64,000 bases of DNA from Fibrobacter sp. UWT2 (GTDB taxonomy: Bacteria; Fibrobacterota; Fibrobacteria; Fibrobacterales; Fibrobacteraceae). The position numbers and the translations under genes were made by a program. Every line of letters starts with the position of its first letter. The stretch's first letter is position 1. Of the stretch, positions 7,357 to 14,754 are shown in pieces. The notes beneath the pieces were generated by a model. It saw nothing but the letters and a program-made list of their open reading frames with translations, was not told the DNA's origin and did no database searches. The stretch lies in the NCBI RefSeq assembly GCF_900142545.1, contig NZ_FRBF01000004.1:124001-188000 (forward strand). The letters are read 5' to 3'.

Positions 7357-9503
7357 GATTTTACCACCTGCTTAACGCCAGCAATGTTCTTGATAGCGGT
7401 AATGATTGAATCTACTTGTTCCTTGCGGAATGCCTTGAACACCAGTTTGATTCGTCCCGAATAATGTTGGCTTGCTGCTGAAATTCGTTCCAGAAATACG
7501 TTTGCCCGTTTGAGTTCCTGCAACACATCGAAGGTCATGTTCTTGCGGTTTTCCGTTTCGATGGTCAGGTGGGTCTCGAAGGAATGCTTGATGTCTTCGC
7601 TCCATTCCACGGCAATGCGTTGTTCCATGGGCAGGTTCTTAAGCTGCGGACAGTCGGCATTGTGGACTTCGATACCGATCTTCGGACGCAAGACGCCCAT
7701 GACCGGATCGCCCGGAATCGGGCTACAGCACTTGGCGAAGTGGACCACCAAACTGGTTTCCTGGCCGATTTGCAGAGGCATTTCGTCTCTGCGGTCAGCC
7801 TTCAGGTCCTTGTTGAACATGGGGAAGAACCGGAGGGAATTTGATTCCTTCTGTGTGGTTTCGCCACCGTTCAAGAAACGCTGGATGTCCGACAGAGGCA
7901 GTTCGCCCTGCCCCAGTCGTTCGTAAAAGTCGTCCAGGGTGGGGGTGCCAAAGTACTTGCAGATAGACTCTTCGGAAGGACGCTTGTCCTTTTCGATTTT
8001 CTGAAGTCGGAGTTCGCGAACCCAAATTTCTTTACCCAGGTCGAGAGCCTGTTTCATAATGCTGGTTTTCATCCAGCGGCGCAGTTCCTGCTTGGCCTTC
8101 ACGGTCTTTACCATGTCCAGCCATTCGGGGCTGGGTTCCTGGTTCGGGCTCTTGAGCACCTGGATGGTAGCTCCATGTTCGATTACCGTGTCCAGATTCA
8201 CCACTTCGTCGTTGATTTTTGCGCCAATGCAGTGCAGGCCCAGTTCGGTGTGGACGGCAAATGCAAAGTCCAAGACGATGGAGCCTTGAGGCAGTTCAAT
8301 AGAGGTTCCCTTAGGGGTAAATACCGTCATGCCCGAAGGTTTCAGGTCCACCTTCAAGAAGTCGAGGTATTCCTTGGAGTCGGAAATTTCCGATTGGAGC
8401 TTCACCATGTGGTTCAGCCATTCCAGTTCTTCGCCTTCGTGCTGGGTTTCCATTTTATAGGCCCAGTGGGCGGCGAATCCCTTTTCGGCGGTCAGGTCCA
8501 TGTCCTTGGTACGGATTTGGACTTCCACCATCTTGTTTTCGGGACCGATCACCGTGGTGTGAATGCTCTGGTAAAGGTTCGGCTTCGGAGTCGCGATGTA
8601 GTCTTTGAAGCGGCTCTGCAGGGGCGTCCACAGGTTGTGGACGTAGCCCAAGGCCAAATAGCATTCGGGAATGGTGTCGACGATAATGCGAATGGCGAAA
8701 ATATCGAAGATGTCTTCGAACTGGCACCCTCGGCTGAGCATCTTGTTGTAGATGCTGTAAATGTTCTTGGTGCGGCCCTGGATCGTACAGTCAAAATCTT
8801 CCAGTGCCATCTTGATTTGCAACGGTCCAATCACCGACTGGATGTACTTTTCGCGGGATTCCTTGTTTTCGATAAGGAGGTCCACCAGCTTTTGGTATTC
8901 ATCGGGATTCACGTACTTGAAGCTTAAATCTTCAAGTTCGTTTTTCAGCTTGTAAAGACCGAATCGATGGGTAAGCGGAATGTAAATGTCCAGGGTTTCC
9001 TGGGCAATCAATTGCCTTTTTTCGGGTTTCATGTATCGCATGGTGCGCATGTTGTGGATGCGGTCTGCGATTTTAATCATGATAACCCGGGGGTCTTTGG
9101 CCATGGCCGTAATCAGTTTACGGTAGGTTTCCGCTTTTTGGGCTGTTTTGCTTGATTCTTGGGCGGCAGTAATCTTAGTGACGGCATCCACCATGAAGGC
9201 GGTGTCGTTTCCAAATTTTTCTGCGATTTCTTCGAGGGAATGGTCGGTATCTTCGACCACGTCATGGAGCAGCCCTGCCAAGACCGTGGATTGGTCCTGT
9301 TTGAGGTCAGCAAGGATTTTTGCCACTTCGTAAGGGTGCTCGGTATAGGGCATGCCGCTCTTGCGGTATTGACCTTCATGAGCCTCGGCGATAAAGGCAA
9401 CAGCCTTTTCTAGAATCCCACGATCAAGGTTGGGATTCTTCTTTAAAAGCACGTCTACAATGTGCGTTTGGTTCGATGTGAGGCTCGCTTGTAACATCAC
9501 CAT
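7353..9503 (-). CDS. rel: Bifunctional (p)ppGpp synthetase/hydrolase, Rel/SpoT family
   Basis: Stringent-response enzyme that makes and degrades (p)ppGpp, cytosolic. 716 residues in the full long-RSH layout: HD hydrolase (about 30-180) with H56, H80-D81 (LLHDVVEDT) and KIADRIHNMRTM intact; synthetase (about 235-350) with DIFAIRIIV, SRFKDYIA, KPNLYQSIHTTV and EVQIRT; TGS domain from about 395 (VFTPKGTSIELPQGS); a zinc-finger/CC-type segment with AKCCSPIPGDPVMG at about 615; and a C-terminal ACT domain. Hydrolase motifs being intact argues for a bifunctional enzyme. ATG at 9503 and ATG at 9497 are both possible starts; neither has a well-spaced Shine-Dalgarno sequence. The stop overlaps the next gene. 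Confidence 0.93.
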   Translation of the reverse strand: MVMLQASLTSNQTHIVDVLLKKNPNLDRGILEKAVAFIAEAHEGQYRKSGMPYTEHPYEVAKILADLKQDQSTVLAGLLHDVVEDTDHSLEEIAEKFGNDTAFMVDAVTKITAAQESSKTAQKAETYRKLITAMAKDPRVIMIKIADRIHNMRTMRYMKPEKRQLIAQETLDIYIPLTHRFGLYKLKNELEDLSFKYVNPDEYQKLVDLLIENKESREKYIQSVIGPLQIKMALEDFDCTIQGRTKNIYSIYNKMLSRGCQFEDIFDIFAIRIIVDTIPECYLALGYVHNLWTPLQSRFKDYIATPKPNLYQSIHTTVIGPENKMVEVQIRTKDMDLTAEKGFAAHWAYKMETQHEGEELEWLNHMVKLQSEISDSKEYLDFLKVDLKPSGMTVFTPKGTSIELPQGSIVLDFAFAVHTELGLHCIGAKINDEVVNLDTVIEHGATIQVLKSPNQEPSPEWLDMVKTVKAKQELRRWMKTSIMKQALDLGKEIWVRELRLQKIEKDKRPSEESICKYFGTPTLDDFYERLGQGELPLSDIQRFLNGGETTQKESNSLRFFPMFNKDLKADRRDEMPLQIGQETSLVVHFAKCCSPIPGDPVMGVLRPKIGIEVHNADCPQLKNLPMEQRIAVEWSEDIKHSFETHLTIETENRKNMTFDVLQELKRANVFLERISAASQHYSGRIKLVFKAFRKEQVDSIITAIKNIAGVKQVVKS

Positions 9504-9626
9504 AAATAATATCTAAAAAAACGCTCCTTGGAATGTCGAATTTTGCGAAATAAGCGAAAAATAAGGGTTTTTGCAGAACTCCCGCTGTTGTTTTTGTGAA
9601 CAACACTTTGTTTTTCTGAACTATTT

Positions 9627-9763
9627 AATTAGGGCGGAGAAATACCTAATTTGCGGCTAGGTTAATGACACCTCGGGCTAGGAGTTGGTTTGGATATTTT
9701 CCCTAGCCCCGATAGGGATACTATCGGTAAGAGCCGCACCTTTTTTGGTGCGGCTCTTGCTTT
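9627..9763 (+). ncRNA. Candidate structured small RNA
   Basis: Plus-strand segment in the gap between two minus-strand genes. Four consecutive hairpins can be drawn: AATTAGG/CCTAATT (9627-9651), GGGCTAGG paired with CCTAGCCC (9675-9709), CCGATAG-GGATA-CTATCGG (9709-9727), and a 12-bp GC-rich terminator (9729-9758) followed by TGCTTTTT. The T-rich tail is only on the plus strand, so the RNA should read left to right, antisense to its surroundings. I do not recognise it as RNase P, SRP, tmRNA or 6S RNA. No convincing -35/-10 pair is visible upstream, although TATTTAAT lies at 9622. It could alternatively act as a leader of the rel gene on the other strand. Confidence 0.45.
9729..9763 (+). terminator. 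Rho-independent terminator, plus strand
   Basis: Perfect 12-bp stem AAGAGCCGCACC / GGTGCGGCTCTT with a TTTTTT loop, followed by TGCTTTTT. The minus-strand reading has no T tract after the stem, so it is not a good terminator for the radical SAM gene that ends at 9788. Confidence 0.7.
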
Positions 9764-9787
9764 TTGAGGTGATTGAAATCTTTTTGC

Positions 9788-10864
9788 TTATGCGCCGGCG
9801 TCTTCGAGGCGCTTTACATGGCAGTAGGCGAGCTCCTTAGTTTTCTCATCACGGAGATGTAGGCTGGAGCCTTCACAGTAGCGCCAGTATTTGCAGGTCT
9901 TGCAGTCGCCAATTTTAGCCCAGCTGCGGTCACGCATCACCTGGTAACGCTTCTGCCAGACTTCCCAAAGGTCGTCTTTGTAGATGTTACCTTGAATATA
10001 GTCGCCGCGGAGGCTCGGGCACGCCGAAATGCTGCCGTCGCAAAGCACAGAGGAAACGTTCACGCCGGCACGGCAGAAGAACGGGTAGTTGCGGGCGTCT
10101 TTTTCGTAGCTGCCGAGGAATCCTTCACAGCCGTAGTTCACGTTGATCACGTTCAGCTTCTTGACTTCGCGAATGAAGTCGAATACCTGGCGGAATTCCT
10201 GGTTCGTAAGCTGGAACAGCGGATTATCCTTGGCGCGGCCCTTGGGGAACACCGTTGCGATTCTCCAGCGTTTGACGCCGATTTTCAGGAGCATGTCGAG
10301 AATTTTCGGGAGTTCCTTAAGGTTCTGGCGGTTCACGCAGGTCATCACATCGAAGGTCAGGCCTTCGGTGTGAGCGGCCATGTCAATGGCCCGCAACGCT
10401 CGCTCAAAGCTATGCGGGTCGCCGCGGAAATGGTTGTGGCTCTCTTGCAGGCCATCGAGGCTGATCGTGAGCGAGCGTAGACCTGCGTTCAGCAGGCGCG
10501 TGTAACGCTCGGGCGTCATCGCAAGTGCGTTAGAAACCATGCCCCAGGGGTAGCCGCGCTTCTTGATTTCCATGCCGCATTCTTCGAGGTCCGGGCGCAT
10601 CAAGGGCTCGCCGCCGGTAATTACCACGATAAAATGCTTCGGGTCAATGTGCGGGGCGAGTTTATCCAGCACGCCCATAAAATCTTCGCGGGGCATATCG
10701 GGAATGGCGTCTTTCACGCAGTCGCTACCGCAGTGCAGACAATGCAAGTTGCAGCGGAGCGTGCATTCCCAGAAAAAGTACGTCAGCGGGTGCGCCTTGA
10801 TTTCGTTGTGACGGTAAAGGCGATAAGCTTCAAGTGCGAGTTTCTTTTTAAGAGAGAGCTTCAT
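9788..10864 (-). CDS. Radical SAM/SPASM enzyme of an rSAM/lipoprotein system
   Basis: 358-residue radical S-adenosylmethionine enzyme. The N-terminal cluster motif CNLHCLHC (C38, C42, C45) lies in WECTLRCNLHCLHCG, followed by the SAM-binding ITGGEPLM and SLDGLQESHN. The C-terminal SPASM region has CRAGVNVSSVLCDGSISACP and CKTCKYWRYCEG, which would hold auxiliary 4Fe-4S clusters. The overall sequence, including YGCEGFLGSYE and HLRDEKT near the end, matches what I know of the radical SAM enzyme of the rSAM/lipoprotein system described by comparative genomics in Bacteroidota. It is the last gene of an operon after three lipoproteins, 36 bases downstream of the third. The inferred role is modification of those lipoproteins; chemistry unknown. 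Confidence 0.88.
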   Translation of the reverse strand: MKLSLKKKLALEAYRLYRHNEIKAHPLTYFFWECTLRCNLHCLHCGSDCVKDAIPDMPREDFMGVLDKLAPHIDPKHFIVVITGGEPLMRPDLEECGMEIKKRGYPWGMVSNALAMTPERYTRLLNAGLRSLTISLDGLQESHNHFRGDPHSFERALRAIDMAAHTEGLTFDVMTCVNRQNLKELPKILDMLLKIGVKRWRIATVFPKGRAKDNPLFQLTNQEFRQVFDFIREVKKLNVINVNYGCEGFLGSYEKDARNYPFFCRAGVNVSSVLCDGSISACPSLRGDYIQGNIYKDDLWEVWQKRYQVMRDRSWAKIGDCKTCKYWRYCEGSSLHLRDEKTKELAYCHVKRLEDAGA

Positions 10865-10900
10865 AATAGTAGACTGTAGGAAGTGGAAAGTTGTTAGGGG

Positions 10901-11683
10901 TTATTGGTTGCTGTCAGCTTCGCCGGAAAGGCATTTGTTGATTCGGGCTTCGAGTTCTTTCAGCTTGTCTTCGTAAACCTTCTTGAGTTCTTCTTCCAGA
11001 GCGGGCAAGTTCGCTTCCCATTCTTCCTTCATCTTCAGGAACTTGGCGTATTCTTCGCTGGGCCTGATGGTGCCGTCGCTGCAAGATTCTACCGCGCTAT
11101 CAATGACGACCGGTGCACCGTAAAGTGCTATGAAACGGTCCAGTTCATCGCGTAAGTTTTCGAGGCACATGGGTGTTTCTGCCAAAGTCTGCTGGATGGA
11201 ATCAATCTTCTTTACGGCATCGTGCTTGGCCTGTTCCTCTTTCCACATCTTTTTTACATCTGCGATGTAATCATCATAAAAATACGCTACGTTGGAATCC
11301 AAGGGCACGCATGTCACCTCGCTGGAGCTAGATTCCCCGGATAATTCACTGCTGGAGCTTTCTTCGGTCATTTCGCTGGAACTGGAGACTGCTTCGCTAG
11401 TTTCGCTACTGGAACTTTCAGTATTCGCAGATTCGGAACTTTCGGGCTTGACAGCTTCAGAACTTGAAGAAACGTTCTCTTCGCTGGAACTGGATTGCAC
11501 TCCGCTAGTCTCGCTAGAGCTGGATTCATCGTTGTTTGATTCGCTGCTTTCGGGCTCGTCGTAGCAACCATTCGGAGGGCACCCGTAAAGTACTCCCTCT
11601 TCGGTTGTTTCACTACAGCTGGCCCAGAACAGGGCGGTCAGCGTAAGGGCGATTTTTTTCCAGTGCTTGTAGAACATCTTCAT
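10901..11683 (-). CDS. rSAM-associated lipoprotein 1 (YG motifs, Ser-rich linker)
   Basis: 260 residues. The signal peptide (M)FYKHWKKIALTLTALFWASC is almost identical to that of the next two genes; the lipobox FWAS-C has Trp at -3, where Leu is usual. After the lipidated Cys come LYGCPPNGCYD (about residue 32), a long SSSSE/SSSE-repeat linker (45-125), then a helical Glu/Lys-rich domain containing IALYGAPVVIDS. The two YG-x-P motifs are candidate sites for the radical SAM enzyme 36 bases downstream. Two ATGs (11683 and 11677) are usable; the second matches the start of the paralogues and lies 9 bases after GGAG. No known enzymatic domain is seen. Confidence 0.8.
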   Translation of the reverse strand: MKMFYKHWKKIALTLTALFWASCSETTEEGVLYGCPPNGCYDEPESSESNNDESSSSETSGVQSSSSEENVSSSSEAVKPESSESANTESSSSETSEAVSSSSEMTEESSSSELSGESSSSEVTCVPLDSNVAYFYDDYIADVKKMWKEEQAKHDAVKKIDSIQQTLAETPMCLENLRDELDRFIALYGAPVVIDSAVESCSDGTIRPSEEYAKFLKMKEEWEANLPALEEELKKVYEDKLKELEARINKCLSGEADSNQ

Positions 11684-11710
11684 TTTCTCCTAAAGTCTTT
11701 TGACGAATGT

Positions 11711-12295
11711 CTATTCCACCTTAATAAAGGTTGTATCATCTGGCTTTGCGGGGCAGTTAATAATGGGGTGGCAGCCTGCAAGTGAATCCTGTTCAATCGG
11801 CTTTGATGGGTCGCGTTCAATGCAGATATCTTGGTCGCTGGTGCAGTTGGGAGCTTTTTCGCTGCCTGCCTTCGGGGCGAAAACCTGGATTCCTTCGGGG
11901 AGTTCTACGCCTTCGGACCCGGCGTCGCCTGGATTTCGCAAGTACTTGTTGCCGTCAATACAGTCGATAATCTTGAATACCCTGCCTTCGACATTTTGCA
12001 CAGAATCGTTAAAACAGAGTATTTGGTCAGTGTATATAGTGTCTCTATCGTCAGGATCGTATGGAACGCCATAGTCAAGAGCCATCAAAATGAAATCGCT
12101 GCTGGAACTTTCTTCTAACGAACTAGAAGAGAATGTAACATCACTGGAATCATTCTCTATGGGACCTATTACCCCATAAAGACTGGGATCAGCTTGAACT
12201 GCTGAAATCTCTTCGCTGGAGCCATCGCCTCCACAGCTGGCCCAGAAAAAACTGGCCAGAGCAAGAGCGATTTTTTTCCAGTGCTTGTAAAACAT
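11711..12295 (-). CDS. rSAM-associated lipoprotein 2 (YG motifs)
   Basis: 194 residues, beginning MFYKHWKKIALALASFFWAS-C, with the same basic n-region and Trp in the lipobox as its neighbours. Two motif copies follow: SLYGVIGPIE (residues 39-47) and ALDYGVPYDPDD (72-83), separated by a short SSSSLEESSSS linker. The rest is acidic, with several cysteines (for example CFNDS, DCIDGNKYL, NCTSDQDICIERD, GCHPIINCP) that could form disulfides outside the cytoplasm. It sits 27 bases upstream of lipoprotein 1. Function unknown; the family assignment rests on signal peptide, motif and operon position. Confidence 0.78.
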   Translation of the reverse strand: MFYKHWKKIALALASFFWASCGGDGSSEEISAVQADPSLYGVIGPIENDSSDVTFSSSSLEESSSSDFILMALDYGVPYDPDDRDTIYTDQILCFNDSVQNVEGRVFKIIDCIDGNKYLRNPGDAGSEGVELPEGIQVFAPKAGSEKAPNCTSDQDICIERDPSKPIEQDSLAGCHPIINCPAKPDDTTFIKVE

Positions 12296-12319
12296 GGCTG
12301 GTTCCCTGATTATTGACTT

Positions 12320-12892
12320 CTATTCCTTTTCGTCGTCGCAGGTGCCGTTGAATACGCAAGGCGGACCGTAAAGGGCTGGTTGCATGGAAATAGAATCTTG
12401 TTCAGGTTCCTCGACTACAGTTATCTTTCCGTAGCGGGCGCGGAATTCGGCTTCGCTGTATACCTTGCCGTCGCATTCGTAGGTGTTTTCGGAAATTTGC
12501 ACTACGCCGTAATCAGGGCAGATGTCGTTACTGCAGGGGAGTCCGCCCCAACGCTCTTCGGTCTTTTGCGTGCAGACTGTTCCGTCGTTGCAGGTAATCG
12601 TAGGGTCGCCCTTGACCTGGGTGCAAAGGGTTGTGTCCATGATAACGCCATACAGCGGCATTTGCATTTCAATTTCACTGCTGGAACTTTCGGGCTTAGA
12701 GGCTTCAGAAGAACTGGAGACTGTTTCGTTACCGGTTGCCTCGCTGGAACTGGATGTCGGGTTTTCGGCGGGATCGCTGTAATTGGGGTCGGGACCATAA
12801 AGGCATACGGCCGATGAGGCGGAGTCGTCACAACTTGCCCAGAAAAATCCGGTCAGGGCAAGAGCAATCTTTTTCCAATGTTTGTAGAACAT
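12320..12892 (-). CDS. rSAM-associated lipoprotein 3 (five YG motifs, Cys-rich)
   Basis: 190 residues and first gene of the four-gene operon. Signal peptide MFYKHWKKIALALTGFFWAS-C, lipobox Cys at 21. Five YG dipeptides are spread along the protein at residues 32 (CLYGPDPNY), 81 (PLYGVIMDT), 128 (PDYGVVQIS), 154 (ARYGKITVV) and 175 (ALYGPPCVF); the first two are separated by SSSSE linkers. About ten cysteines lie in the C-terminal two thirds, including NDGTVCTQK and CSNDICPDYG. A GGGAG sequence precedes the ATG by 7 bases and a good promoter lies upstream. No enzymatic domain is seen; it is a likely substrate of the radical SAM enzyme. Confidence 0.8.
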   Translation of the reverse strand: MFYKHWKKIALALTGFFWASCDDSASSAVCLYGPDPNYSDPAENPTSSSSEATGNETVSSSSEASKPESSSSEIEMQMPLYGVIMDTTLCTQVKGDPTITCNDGTVCTQKTEERWGGLPCSNDICPDYGVVQISENTYECDGKVYSEAEFRARYGKITVVEEPEQDSISMQPALYGPPCVFNGTCDDEKE

Positions 12893-12925
12893 ACGGTTCT
12901 CCCTTCTTTGTGTCTTTCGGTAACG

Positions 12926-12954
12926 AATATATATAAATGATTATTACCCTGCAA
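12926..12954 (-). promoter_or_regulatory. Promoter of the lipoprotein/rSAM operon
   Basis: On the minus strand TTGCAG (12954-12949), a 17-base spacer and TATATT (12931-12926) form a near-consensus sigma-70-type promoter, 34 bases before the ATG of lipoprotein 3. It diverges from the trpE promoter. Confidence 0.6.
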
Positions 12955-13046
12955 TGTAGGGGCAAAATTGTGTGATAGCAGGGGCTGTTTTTTGCCTGTT
13001 TGGGCGGATAATTTCATTTTTTTTACGAAAATTCATCGCAAACCCC

Positions 13047-13075
13047 TTGCCAAGGGAATTTTCGTTTGATATTTT
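13047..13075 (+). promoter_or_regulatory. trpE promoter
   Basis: TTGCCA (13047-13052), 17-base spacer, TATTTT (13070-13075). The -35 is embedded in ACCCCTTGCCA, also found at the lysR and trpB promoters. The -10 extends to TATTTTTG, which also fits the Bacteroidota TAnnTTTG element. The leader-peptide ATG starts only 8 bases after the -10 box. Confidence 0.65.
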
Positions 13076-13082
13076 TGGTGCC

Positions 13083-13139
13083 ATGATGAATTTTGTGACT
13101 ACAGCAACCCTTAACCGTCGTTGGTGGCGCGGACTCTAA
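13083..13139 (+). CDS. trpL: trp leader peptide upstream of trpE
   Basis: 18-codon open frame reading MMNFVTTATLNRRWWRGL and stop. Two adjacent Trp codons (13122-13127) are followed at once by the first arm of an RNA hairpin. There is no Shine-Dalgarno sequence and almost no 5' leader, given the promoter position. The role, inferred from the classical attenuation model, is to sense charged tRNA-Trp by ribosome stalling. Confidence 0.8.
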   Translation: MMNFVTTATLNRRWWRGL

Positions 13140-13219
13140 CATAGAGCCCGGTATTTGTCGCAAATCACCCAAGATTTTAAAGCAAAGGCTTCCGGACTCA
13201 CGGAGGCCTTTCTCTTTTA
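13131..13219 (+). promoter_or_regulatory. trp attenuator upstream of trpE
   Basis: Competing RNA structures can be drawn. Arms 1:2 are GGACTCTA (13131-13138) with TAGAGCCC (13142-13149), one mismatch. Arms 2:3 are GAGCCCGG (13144-13151) with CCGGACTC (13192-13199), 7 of 8 pairs. The terminator 3:4 is AAAGGCTTCCG (13184-13194) with CGGAGGCCTTT (13201-13211), followed by CTCTTTTA. A ribosome stalled on the Trp codons would cover arm 1 and favour 2:3, letting transcription reach trpE. Confidence 0.78.
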
Positions 13220-13305
13220 CCAAAATCATTGAAATCCTCCGGGACCTAAGCCTTTGCGGAACCCGAAACGAAAAGGCAAACGATTTTTTAAACCAGAGGA
13301 TCAAA

Positions 13306-14754
13306 ATGACAACGAACATAAGGCACATCACTGAAAGCCCTAACTTCGAACCCCGTACCGACAGTATCTACGTGGCACTGCCCGGTGAACGTTACACCCC
13401 GTTTTCGCTCGGCAAGAAGCTCGGTGCGAAGGCAATCTTTGAATCCGCAAGCTTTTCTCACGGTCGCAGCCGCTATTCGACCCTGATGGTGGACGAAGGC
13501 TTCCGTCTGCGCCAGAACGACAAGGACGTGAGCATCGTTGTCGATGGCAAGGAAAGTGTGTTCCTGAAGGAAGGCGAAGGTGACATTCTTGATGCCCTTA
13601 CGCTGATTTCTGCCGAAAATACGGTGCCGCCTAACCAGATCCCTATTCCTTCTTCGGGCGTGGGCTACCTCGGCTACGAATTCTGCGCCCGCTGCGATAC
13701 CATTCGCCTTGCCCCGCAGGTCGATGAACTCAACATTCCCGAAGCCGAATTCTTGGTCGGTCACATCTACATCGTGTTTGACCACTTTACCGAAAAACTT
13801 CACCTGTTCGCCCTGAACTACGAAGAACACCAGATTGATTTGAAGGCTGCGATTGAAAAGGTGAAGGCCCGCCTCGCTGACCTGGACTTCAGCTACCTCG
13901 CTCCGGAAAAGCAGTACGGCAAGGGCATCACGATGACTGACCTGGAACAGTCCCGCAAGGAATACACCGAAAAGGTCGAAGCCCTGCAGAAGCATATCAT
14001 TGCTGGCAACATTGTGCAGGCTGTGCCTTCTCGCCGCATTCAGTTTGCAAGCGATATCGAAGCTCTCGACATTTACCGCCGCCTCCGCACGGTGAACCCG
14101 TCTCCGTACATGTTCTTCCTCGATTACGGCACGCACCAGTTTATCGGTGCATCGCCGGAGAGCTTGGTGCGCGTGCGTGATGGCATCGCCACCATCCACC
14201 CGATTGCAGGCACCCGCCGCCGCGGCAAGGACGACGTGGAAGACGAAGCCCTGATGAAGAACCTGAAGGGCGACCCGAAGGAACGCGCAGAACACTTGAT
14301 GCTCGTGGACTTGGCCCGTAACGACCTTGGCCGTGTTTGTGAAGCCGGTACGGTGGAAACCACCAAGTACATGGAATGCGAAAAGTTCAGCCACGTGATT
14401 CACCTGGTCTCTGACGTGCAGGGCCGTGTGGCAAAGAACAAGAAGGCCATCGAAGTGCTGCGCTCCAGCTTCCCGGCTGGTACCGTGAGCGGCGCCCCGA
14501 AAATCAGCGCGATTGAAATCCTTTCTGGCCTCGAAAAGGTTAAACGTCGTTTCTACGCCGGTGCAGTGGGCTACATGGAATCCGACGGTGACTTGGATTT
14601 CTGTATCGCTATCCGTTGCTGCTTAAAGCAGGGTAAGACCATCAGCCTGCAGGCCGGTGGTGGCATTGTCGCGGCCTCGAATGCTGACCGCGAATTTGAA
14701 GAAACGAACGAAAAATTGGGTGCCATCCGCGCCGTGCTCGAAGGAGAAAACTAA
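13306..14754 (+). CDS. trpE: Anthranilate synthase component I
   Basis: First step of tryptophan synthesis: chorismate plus ammonia/glutamine to anthranilate, with the TrpG domain encoded next. 482 residues. The chorismate-binding domain (about 210-475) has the full set HPIAGTRRRGKDD, ERAEHLMLVDLARNDLGR, FPAGTVSGAPKISAIE and the final QAGGGIVAASNADREFEET, cited by its ends QAGGG and DREFEE. IFESASF near residue 43 corresponds to the LLES Trp-feedback region. The AGAGG ribosome site lies 7 bases before ATG 13306. It is controlled by the attenuator upstream and ends 1 base before trpGD. Confidence 0.96.
   Translation: MTTNIRHITESPNFEPRTDSIYVALPGERYTPFSLGKKLGAKAIFESASFSHGRSRYSTLMVDEGFRLRQNDKDVSIVVDGKESVFLKEGEGDILDALTLISAENTVPPNQIPIPSSGVGYLGYEFCARCDTIRLAPQVDELNIPEAEFLVGHIYIVFDHFTEKLHLFALNYEEHQIDLKAAIEKVKARLADLDFSYLAPEKQYGKGITMTDLEQSRKEYTEKVEALQKHIIAGNIVQAVPSRRIQFASDIEALDIYRRLRTVNPSPYMFFLDYGTHQFIGASPESLVRVRDGIATIHPIAGTRRRGKDDVEDEALMKNLKGDPKERAEHLMLVDLARNDLGRVCEAGTVETTKYMECEKFSHVIHLVSDVQGRVAKNKKAIEVLRSSFPAGTVSGAPKISAIEILSGLEKVKRRFYAGAVGYMESDGDLDFCIAIRCCLKQGKTISLQAGGGIVAASNADREFEETNEKLGAIRAVLEGEN

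Follow-up and report, generated by a model that had tools for sequence, protein, structure and literature searches.

Four minus-strand genes in a 64,000-nucleotide stretch of the Fibrobacter sp. UWT2 genome (contig NZ_FRBF01000004.1, positions 124,001 to 188,000; hereafter the window) encode three lipoproteins, which we designated A, B and C, and a radical SAM/SPASM enzyme of family TIGR04133. Our comparisons favour splicease-type chemistry acting on envelope lipoproteins, with a known enzyme family and an arrayed substrate, and we lean slightly towards the reading that the operon encodes a system which modifies exported lipoproteins by protein splicing, in which a splicease would mark each x-Tyr-Gly. 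The initial annotation of the window named no chemistry, and the relation between TIGR04133 and the spliceases is new in the present analysis. Others may have published this link before; the literature searched here contained no paper on TIGR04133 or TIGR04134. TIGR04133 and its lipoproteins currently carry mere 'hypothetical equivalog' or 'putative' annotations.

Spliceases excise tyramine from x-Tyr-Gly sites, giving rise to reactive, protease-blocking backbone groups. These enzymes have reportedly been surveyed by Scott et al. 2022 (Chem 8:2659). Both MYG and LYG are processed by PlpXY, whose native tag is PIRPLYGLPI; some ten residues, as in this tag, can be enough, the leader of the ribosomally synthesized and post-translationally modified peptide (RiPP) being dispensable, and splicing entails a mass loss of 135.07 Da (PMC10533398). 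PlpX works together with PlpY, the make-up of the two genes has been described, and the InterPro class of PlpX is IPR026482 (PMC11002830). PlpX substrates with several sites are known (PMC10373908), and a passage of the same paper that cites Scott 2022 gives spliceotide products as protease inhibitors.

Open reading frames (ORFs), lipoboxes and a strong family match confirmed the four-gene composition first proposed for this locus, together with the assignment of its enzyme to the rSAM/lipoprotein family. The enzyme scored 620.5 bits against TIGR04133 (rSAM_w_lipo) across model positions 1-350 of 350, above the curated cut-off of 425, with lipoprotein genes adjoining, and both Pfam Radical_SAM and SPASM matched. 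Its CxxxCxxC motif reads CTLRCNLHCLHCGS and its SPASM cysteines are C264, C282, C321, C324, C330 and C348. The predicted structure (predicted local distance difference test, pLDDT, 86) lay closest to the folds of SuiB and SkfB, then BlsE, PqqE and anSME. TIGR04133 was present in 89/168 genomes of the phylum, often as two copies. The ORFs run from 12892 to 9788 in the order A, B, C and enzyme, separated by 24, 27 and 36 nt, so that the lipoprotein genes lie directly upstream of the enzyme gene. It is from these short gaps that we infer co-transcription of the four genes: the single shared promoter originally assigned to them was not borne out, a search immediately ahead of the lipoprotein A gene having found no sigma-70-like site.

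The mature parts of A, B and C contain nine Tyr-Gly (YG) pairs, whereas shuffled versions averaged 1.23 and in 20,000 trials never reached nine. All nine pairs listed in the initial annotation are present, and its count of working sites was cut to eight, RYGKIT of lipoprotein A being kept in only 2/23 homologues and aligned with residues other than YG in the remaining 21; it is probably an incidental Tyr-Gly. The eight conserved x-Tyr-Gly sites resemble what is seen in PlpX substrates, and the best sampled among those with full conservation are DYGVVQ (37/37) and LYGAPV (27/27). Lipoprotein C comprises a signal peptide, a disordered Ser/Glu-rich arm and a folded helical domain (residues 120-259, pLDDT about 90), and its predicted structure places LYGAPV in a helix-strand loop of that domain. 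The earlier placement of the sites mostly between SSSSE linkers was loosely correct, although several are located in folded, Cys-containing domains. YG-x-P, the motif originally put forward, was dropped, with Pro at +2 in 85/237 sites (36 %) across the genus and in only four of nine in the window (LYGCPP, LYGAPV, DYGVPY and LYGPPC). Judging from the alignments, the conserved unit is x-Tyr-Gly.

Relatives extend this pattern. From TIGR04133-linked loci of the Fibrobacter phylum we gathered 143 distinct lipoproteins sharing a near-constant signal peptide, MFYKHWKKIALALTxFFWASC and variants, within which we propose KHWKK as a leader-like recognition element. The 84 non-redundant members of this set contained 237 YG pairs compared with 45 expected (shuffle maximum 67), spread over 80/84 proteins, and YG was the most enriched dipeptide except for the linker SS. 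The consensus around it was [IV][VAC][PA]LYGV[PVI]. Across aligned pairs, the Y and G of YG were conserved in 76 % of cases, the figure being 60 % for Y elsewhere, 44 % for G elsewhere and 41 % for all remaining residues; the surrounding residues x, +1 and +2 reached 54, 57 and 44 %. The check set in the initial annotation, whether only YG-x-P segments are conserved, came out negative, since non-lipid Cys in small domains was retained in 82 % of aligned pairs, above YG, and the signal peptide was retained as well. The residue x is free to vary (L, K, E, D, A), a single site reading DYGVV, KYGVV or EYGVV in different relatives.

Some relatives carry tandem YG arrays built from modules such as SSSMIAAKYGV, with up to eight YG per protein, and the lipoprotein of locus L089 is a plain tandem array (SSSSMIAAKYGVLKPSSSSSIAAKYGVSSSVIAAKYGVSSSAIAAKYGVSSSMIAAKYGV). 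Taken together, the enrichment and the tandem KYGV arrays strongly support the idea, already raised in the initial annotation, that these lipoproteins are arrayed substrates of the TIGR04133 enzyme. Five loci (L089, L094, L091, L092 and L046) encode lipoproteins of the second enzyme paralogue with tandem (I/V)A(A/P)KYGV, where x is K or L only. Lipoproteins linked to paralogue II have exclusively K and L as x (38 K, 18 L, from nine lipoproteins that all belong to one related group), and L, E, D and A predominate in those linked to paralogue I, which may be a hint of specificity. A further 364-aa lipoprotein with a KHWKK signal peptide and the sites VALYGV and VCLYGT is encoded in the UWT2 genome itself (L143:433-1527, minus strand; contig C4 near 41 kb), about 93 kb from the operon and unlinked to it, so that substrates may be modified in trans.

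Outside the phylum, lipoproteins encoded upstream of TIGR04133 genes also carry x-Tyr-Gly, both at loci of Bacteroidota and Marinimicrobia (among L105-L121) and on plasmids of Treponema and Parabacteroides. These partners have EYGxP, CYG or similar near the lipid Cys, in many cases followed by another xYGV(x)S towards the C terminus. Two-site partners are frequent in Bacteroidota and Marinimicrobia (EYGIVPLYGVP; EYGTP...MYGVPS), and the contrast first drawn between a single Bacteroidota site and arrays here was therefore too sharp. In four loci (L108, L109, L111 and L123) YG follows the lipid Cys directly, in which case x would be the lipidated Cys itself. The signal peptides of the partners outside the phylum show an aromatic-x-Lys motif near their start (LFDK, IYDK, TYGK, WTWQK, SKWEK), recalling KHWKK; with Fisher p values of 0.04 and 0.09 from an automatic set that mixed partners and non-partners, this cross-phylum pattern stays a mere observation. 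The Fibrobacter operon thus shares with the Bacteroidota TIGR04133 and TIGR04134 system the enzyme family above cut-off, the lipoprotein gene or genes directly upstream, an x-Tyr-Gly soon after the lipid Cys and aromatic-x-Lys near the signal-peptide start. It differs in that its lipoproteins form cassettes of several paralogues with up to eight sites, Ser-rich linkers and an unlinked genomic member, and in that none of A, B and C matched TIGR04134 (lipo_with_rSAM; cut-off 39.8 bits) at E up to 1, nor did a whole-genome search give a match at their positions. No convincing Pfam or NCBIfam family match was found for A, B or C.

The kinship of the enzyme was examined among SPASM families. Beyond TIGR04133 itself, the best plasmid match came from Nostoc, a nif11-class peptide radical SAM maturase 3 (TIGR04103; 29 % identity, 93 % coverage), a family that we take to be the same as the IPR026482 class of PlpX. 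The Nostoc locus contains a 71-aa ORF in the PlpY position and a Nif11 precursor with C-terminal ALYGLPPELF, whose ALYGLP is comparable to IALYGAPVVI of lipoprotein C. Against TIGR04103 the Fibrobacter enzyme scored 135.7 bits (cut-off 725), making it a relative rather than a member. In a maximum-likelihood tree, TIGR04133 and PlpX-type enzymes grouped together with support of 99/96 relative to AhbD, TIGR04053, TIGR04347 and MftC, and approximately unbiased tests rejected joining either TIGR04133 or the PlpX-type enzymes to the AhbD group instead (p-AU 0.024 and 0.020). A tree that took in very distant rows was unreliable, and the trees given here were rebuilt. TIGR04133 and PlpX-type enzymes had two motifs in common that were not seen in the others, HCGS following the radical SAM cysteines and CPSL within the SPASM domain. 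According to these trees, the PlpX-type 'nif11 maturase 3 / GDL' enzymes are the sister clan of TIGR04133 among the SPASM families compared. SuiB, SkfB, PqqE and MftC have the same fold and Fe-S binding plan as the TIGR04133 enzyme; MftC and PqqE fall outside the group of TIGR04133 and PlpX-type enzymes in the trees, and we know of no x-Tyr-Gly arrays in the substrates of these four. A search for TIGR04103 members at E 1e-90 returned none among the 168 genomes of the phylum, and its controls were silent too, so that absence of the family from the phylum is not demonstrated.

Partners of the sister clan also carry YG. Related maturases adjoin DUF1843 peptides, the majority of which contain PYG or LYG (Azospirillum, Aureibacter). 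On Aureibacter and Azospirillum plasmids (L125, L126 and L134), GDL/TIGR03913-type maturases lie beside repeated DUF1843 genes, whose products have PYG, LYG or MYMA/MYAA close to their N terminus; Gly after Tyr is lacking in some copies. In an Agathobacter rectalis plasmid (L127:2309-2498, plus strand), a 35-aa ORF ending in GPVMYGTGVRM lies directly upstream of a PlpX-type gene annotated simply as 'radical SAM protein', and is a candidate spliceotide of a human gut bacterium. Shared features with PlpXY/TIGR04103 and the GDL maturases (TIGR03913, DUF1843 partners) hence include sister-clan placement, HCGS and CPSL, x-Tyr-Gly partners and multi-site substrates. In contrast to the PlpXY substrates, which are RiPP precursors, A, B and C bear Sec/lipoprotein signal peptides rather than the Nif11/NHLP leader and core of spliceotide RiPPs.

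Several observations weigh against splicease chemistry. Identity between the enzyme and the PlpX-type enzyme is merely about 29 %, and the hidden Markov model scores of the enzyme are near-equal for TIGR04053 (138 bits), TIGR04103 (136) and AhbD (131). A tree including PqqE supports the grouping of TIGR04133 with PlpX-type enzymes at 91/94, slightly below threshold; branches between families are long, and the PlpX-type rows were assigned from their family model and gene neighbourhood, PlpX itself being absent from the tree. The last SPASM Cys of CX5CX3C (CRGGC/CMAGC in PlpX-type enzymes) is replaced in TIGR04133 (CEGSS/CEGNG), leaving the enzyme with an incomplete SPASM Cys set. No PlpY-like gene, encoding a RiPP recognition element (RRE), and no further gene was found in the window operon. 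Lastly, 4/84 leader-bearing lipoproteins have no YG.

The proposed splicing system might work as follows. Three or more lipoprotein precursors would be made together with the enzyme, as the operon suggests, and would be recognised in the cytoplasm, probably via aromatic-x-Lys at the signal-peptide start (KHWKK here), because this start is so constant. Tyramine would then be excised at each x-Tyr-Gly before export, with a loss of 135.07 Da per site, a step suggested by the relatives of the enzyme, by the motif in common with them and by the lack of constraint on x. The lipoproteins, which have a signal peptide and a lipobox in their sequence (FFWASC or LFWASC in A, B and C), would undergo export and lipidation and stay anchored in the envelope, where flexible arms or loops would display several reactive ketoamides. 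Outside the cell, a plausible, speculative role is to inhibit proteases covalently and reversibly, x serving as P1. A bolder version, rather unlikely as a whole, is that Fibrobacter and many gut Bacteroidota display lipid-anchored alpha-ketoamide arrays through a signal-peptide-guided splicease, x setting the protease that is trapped and cassettes diversifying x. K would then suit trypsin-like, L or A subtilisin- or elastase-like, and D or E acidic specificities, diversified as in an arms race.

The main rival is a different radical reaction at x-Tyr-Gly (a cross-link of C-C, C-O or thioether type, epimerisation or oxidation) that leaves the tyramine in place, so that the arrays would be altered tyrosines. 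This is possible, yet less probable than splicing. Reactions of SPASM enzymes are diverse, and the nearest folds (SuiB, SkfB, PqqE, anSME) belong to known families that link or oxidise side chains; the SPASM Cys gap and the missing PlpY leave scope for chemistry other than splicing, and conserved Cys close to many sites might participate. However, x is free whilst YG is fixed, which fits a backbone reaction at Tyr-Gly better than a side-chain link to x, the modest conservation of +1 and +2 provides no second residue at a fixed spacing for a cross-link, and partners of the sister clan also bear x-Tyr-Gly.

Improbable, in our estimation, is that the enzyme modifies another part of the precursor (the signal peptide, the lipid Cys region or a Cys-rich domain) and that YG is a structural or binding motif. 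The signal peptide is indeed the most constant element within Fibrobacter, and non-lipid Cys is better conserved than YG. Nonetheless, YG is the single feature common to otherwise unrelated partners in Fibrobacterota, Bacteroidota, Marinimicrobia and Treponema, recurs in the sister-clan partners (Nif11, most DUF1843 and the 35-aa peptide), and is found in disordered arms as well as folded loops, and tandem KYGV modules fit poorly as part of a fold. That the cassette is a relic which has decayed or is not expressed, its arrays low-complexity drift and its enzyme kept for another task, is very improbable: lipoprotein length and number differ greatly among genomes and the Ser/Glu linkers are of low complexity, yet the ORFs are intact, the enzyme family is widespread in the phylum and YG is conserved above the remaining residues.

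Linking TIGR04133 to the spliceases yields a specific chemical prediction, an exact mass change of -135.07 Da per x-Tyr-Gly, for common gut Bacteroidota and Fibrobacter. If true, backbone splicing would be a regular step in making the envelope lipoproteins of abundant gut bacteria, beyond small secreted peptides, and the lipoproteins would be displayed as multi-headed modified proteins. It would also imply covalent protease inhibitors at the cell surface and offer new enzymes for site-specific ketoamide labelling.

Table 1. Genes, signal peptides and x-Tyr-Gly sites of the operon, numbered from the first nucleotide of the window
Feature	Position	Strand	Remarks
Lipoprotein A	12320..12892	minus	190 aa; ORF and lipobox; four conserved x-Tyr-Gly sites and a non-conserved RYG
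Signal peptide of A	12830..12892	minus	MFYKHWKKIALALTGFFWASC; nearly unchanged in all three lipoproteins
LYG(PDP), A residues 31-33	12794..12802	minus	YG in 42/68 homologues; looser site
LYG(VIM), A residues 80-82	12647..12655	minus	YG in 11/11 homologues
DYG(VVQ), A residues 127-129	12506..12514	minus	YG in 37/37 homologues; x = K, D or E
RYG(KIT), A residues 153-155	12428..12436	minus	YG in 2/23 homologues; probably no site
LYG(PPC), A residues 174-176	12365..12373	minus	YG in 13/13 homologues
Lipoprotein B	11711..12295	minus	194 aa; ORF and lipobox; two x-Tyr-Gly sites
Signal peptide of B	12233..12295	minus	MFYKHWKKIALALASFFWASC
LYG(VIG), B residues 39-41	12173..12181	minus	YG in 6/6; few homologues
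DYG(VPY), B residues 74-76	12068..12076	minus	YG in 2/2; few homologues
Lipoprotein C	10901..11683	minus	260 aa; ORF, lipobox and homologues; two x-Tyr-Gly sites
Signal peptide of C	11615..11683	minus	MKMFYKHWKKIALTLTALFWASC
LYG(CPP), C residues 32-34	11582..11590	minus	Disordered arm; YG in 45/51 homologues
LYG(APV), C residues 187-189	11117..11125	minus	Folded-domain loop; YG in 27/27 homologues
TIGR04133 radical SAM/SPASM enzyme	9788..10864	minus	358 aa; NCBIfam and Pfam matches, model and tree

The host is a rumen/gut bacterium with a genome of 3.49 Mb. The operon is flanked by unrelated genes, named here from their sequence: a RelA/SpoT-like gene (9503-7353, minus strand) and a TrpE-like gene (from 13306, plus strand). 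In an Rfam search of 9500-13400, no match reached the gathering score. Upstream of the TrpE-like gene, an element at 13083-13211 (plus strand) looks like a trp attenuator. It comprises a short ORF, MMNFVTTATLNRRWWRGL followed by a stop, which has two adjacent Trp codons, and after it a terminator-like hairpin of 11 pairs that carries a U-rich tail (13184-13211, plus strand). Right behind the Trp leader ORF, GAGCCCGG could form an antiterminator pairing with CCGGACTC of the terminator stem.

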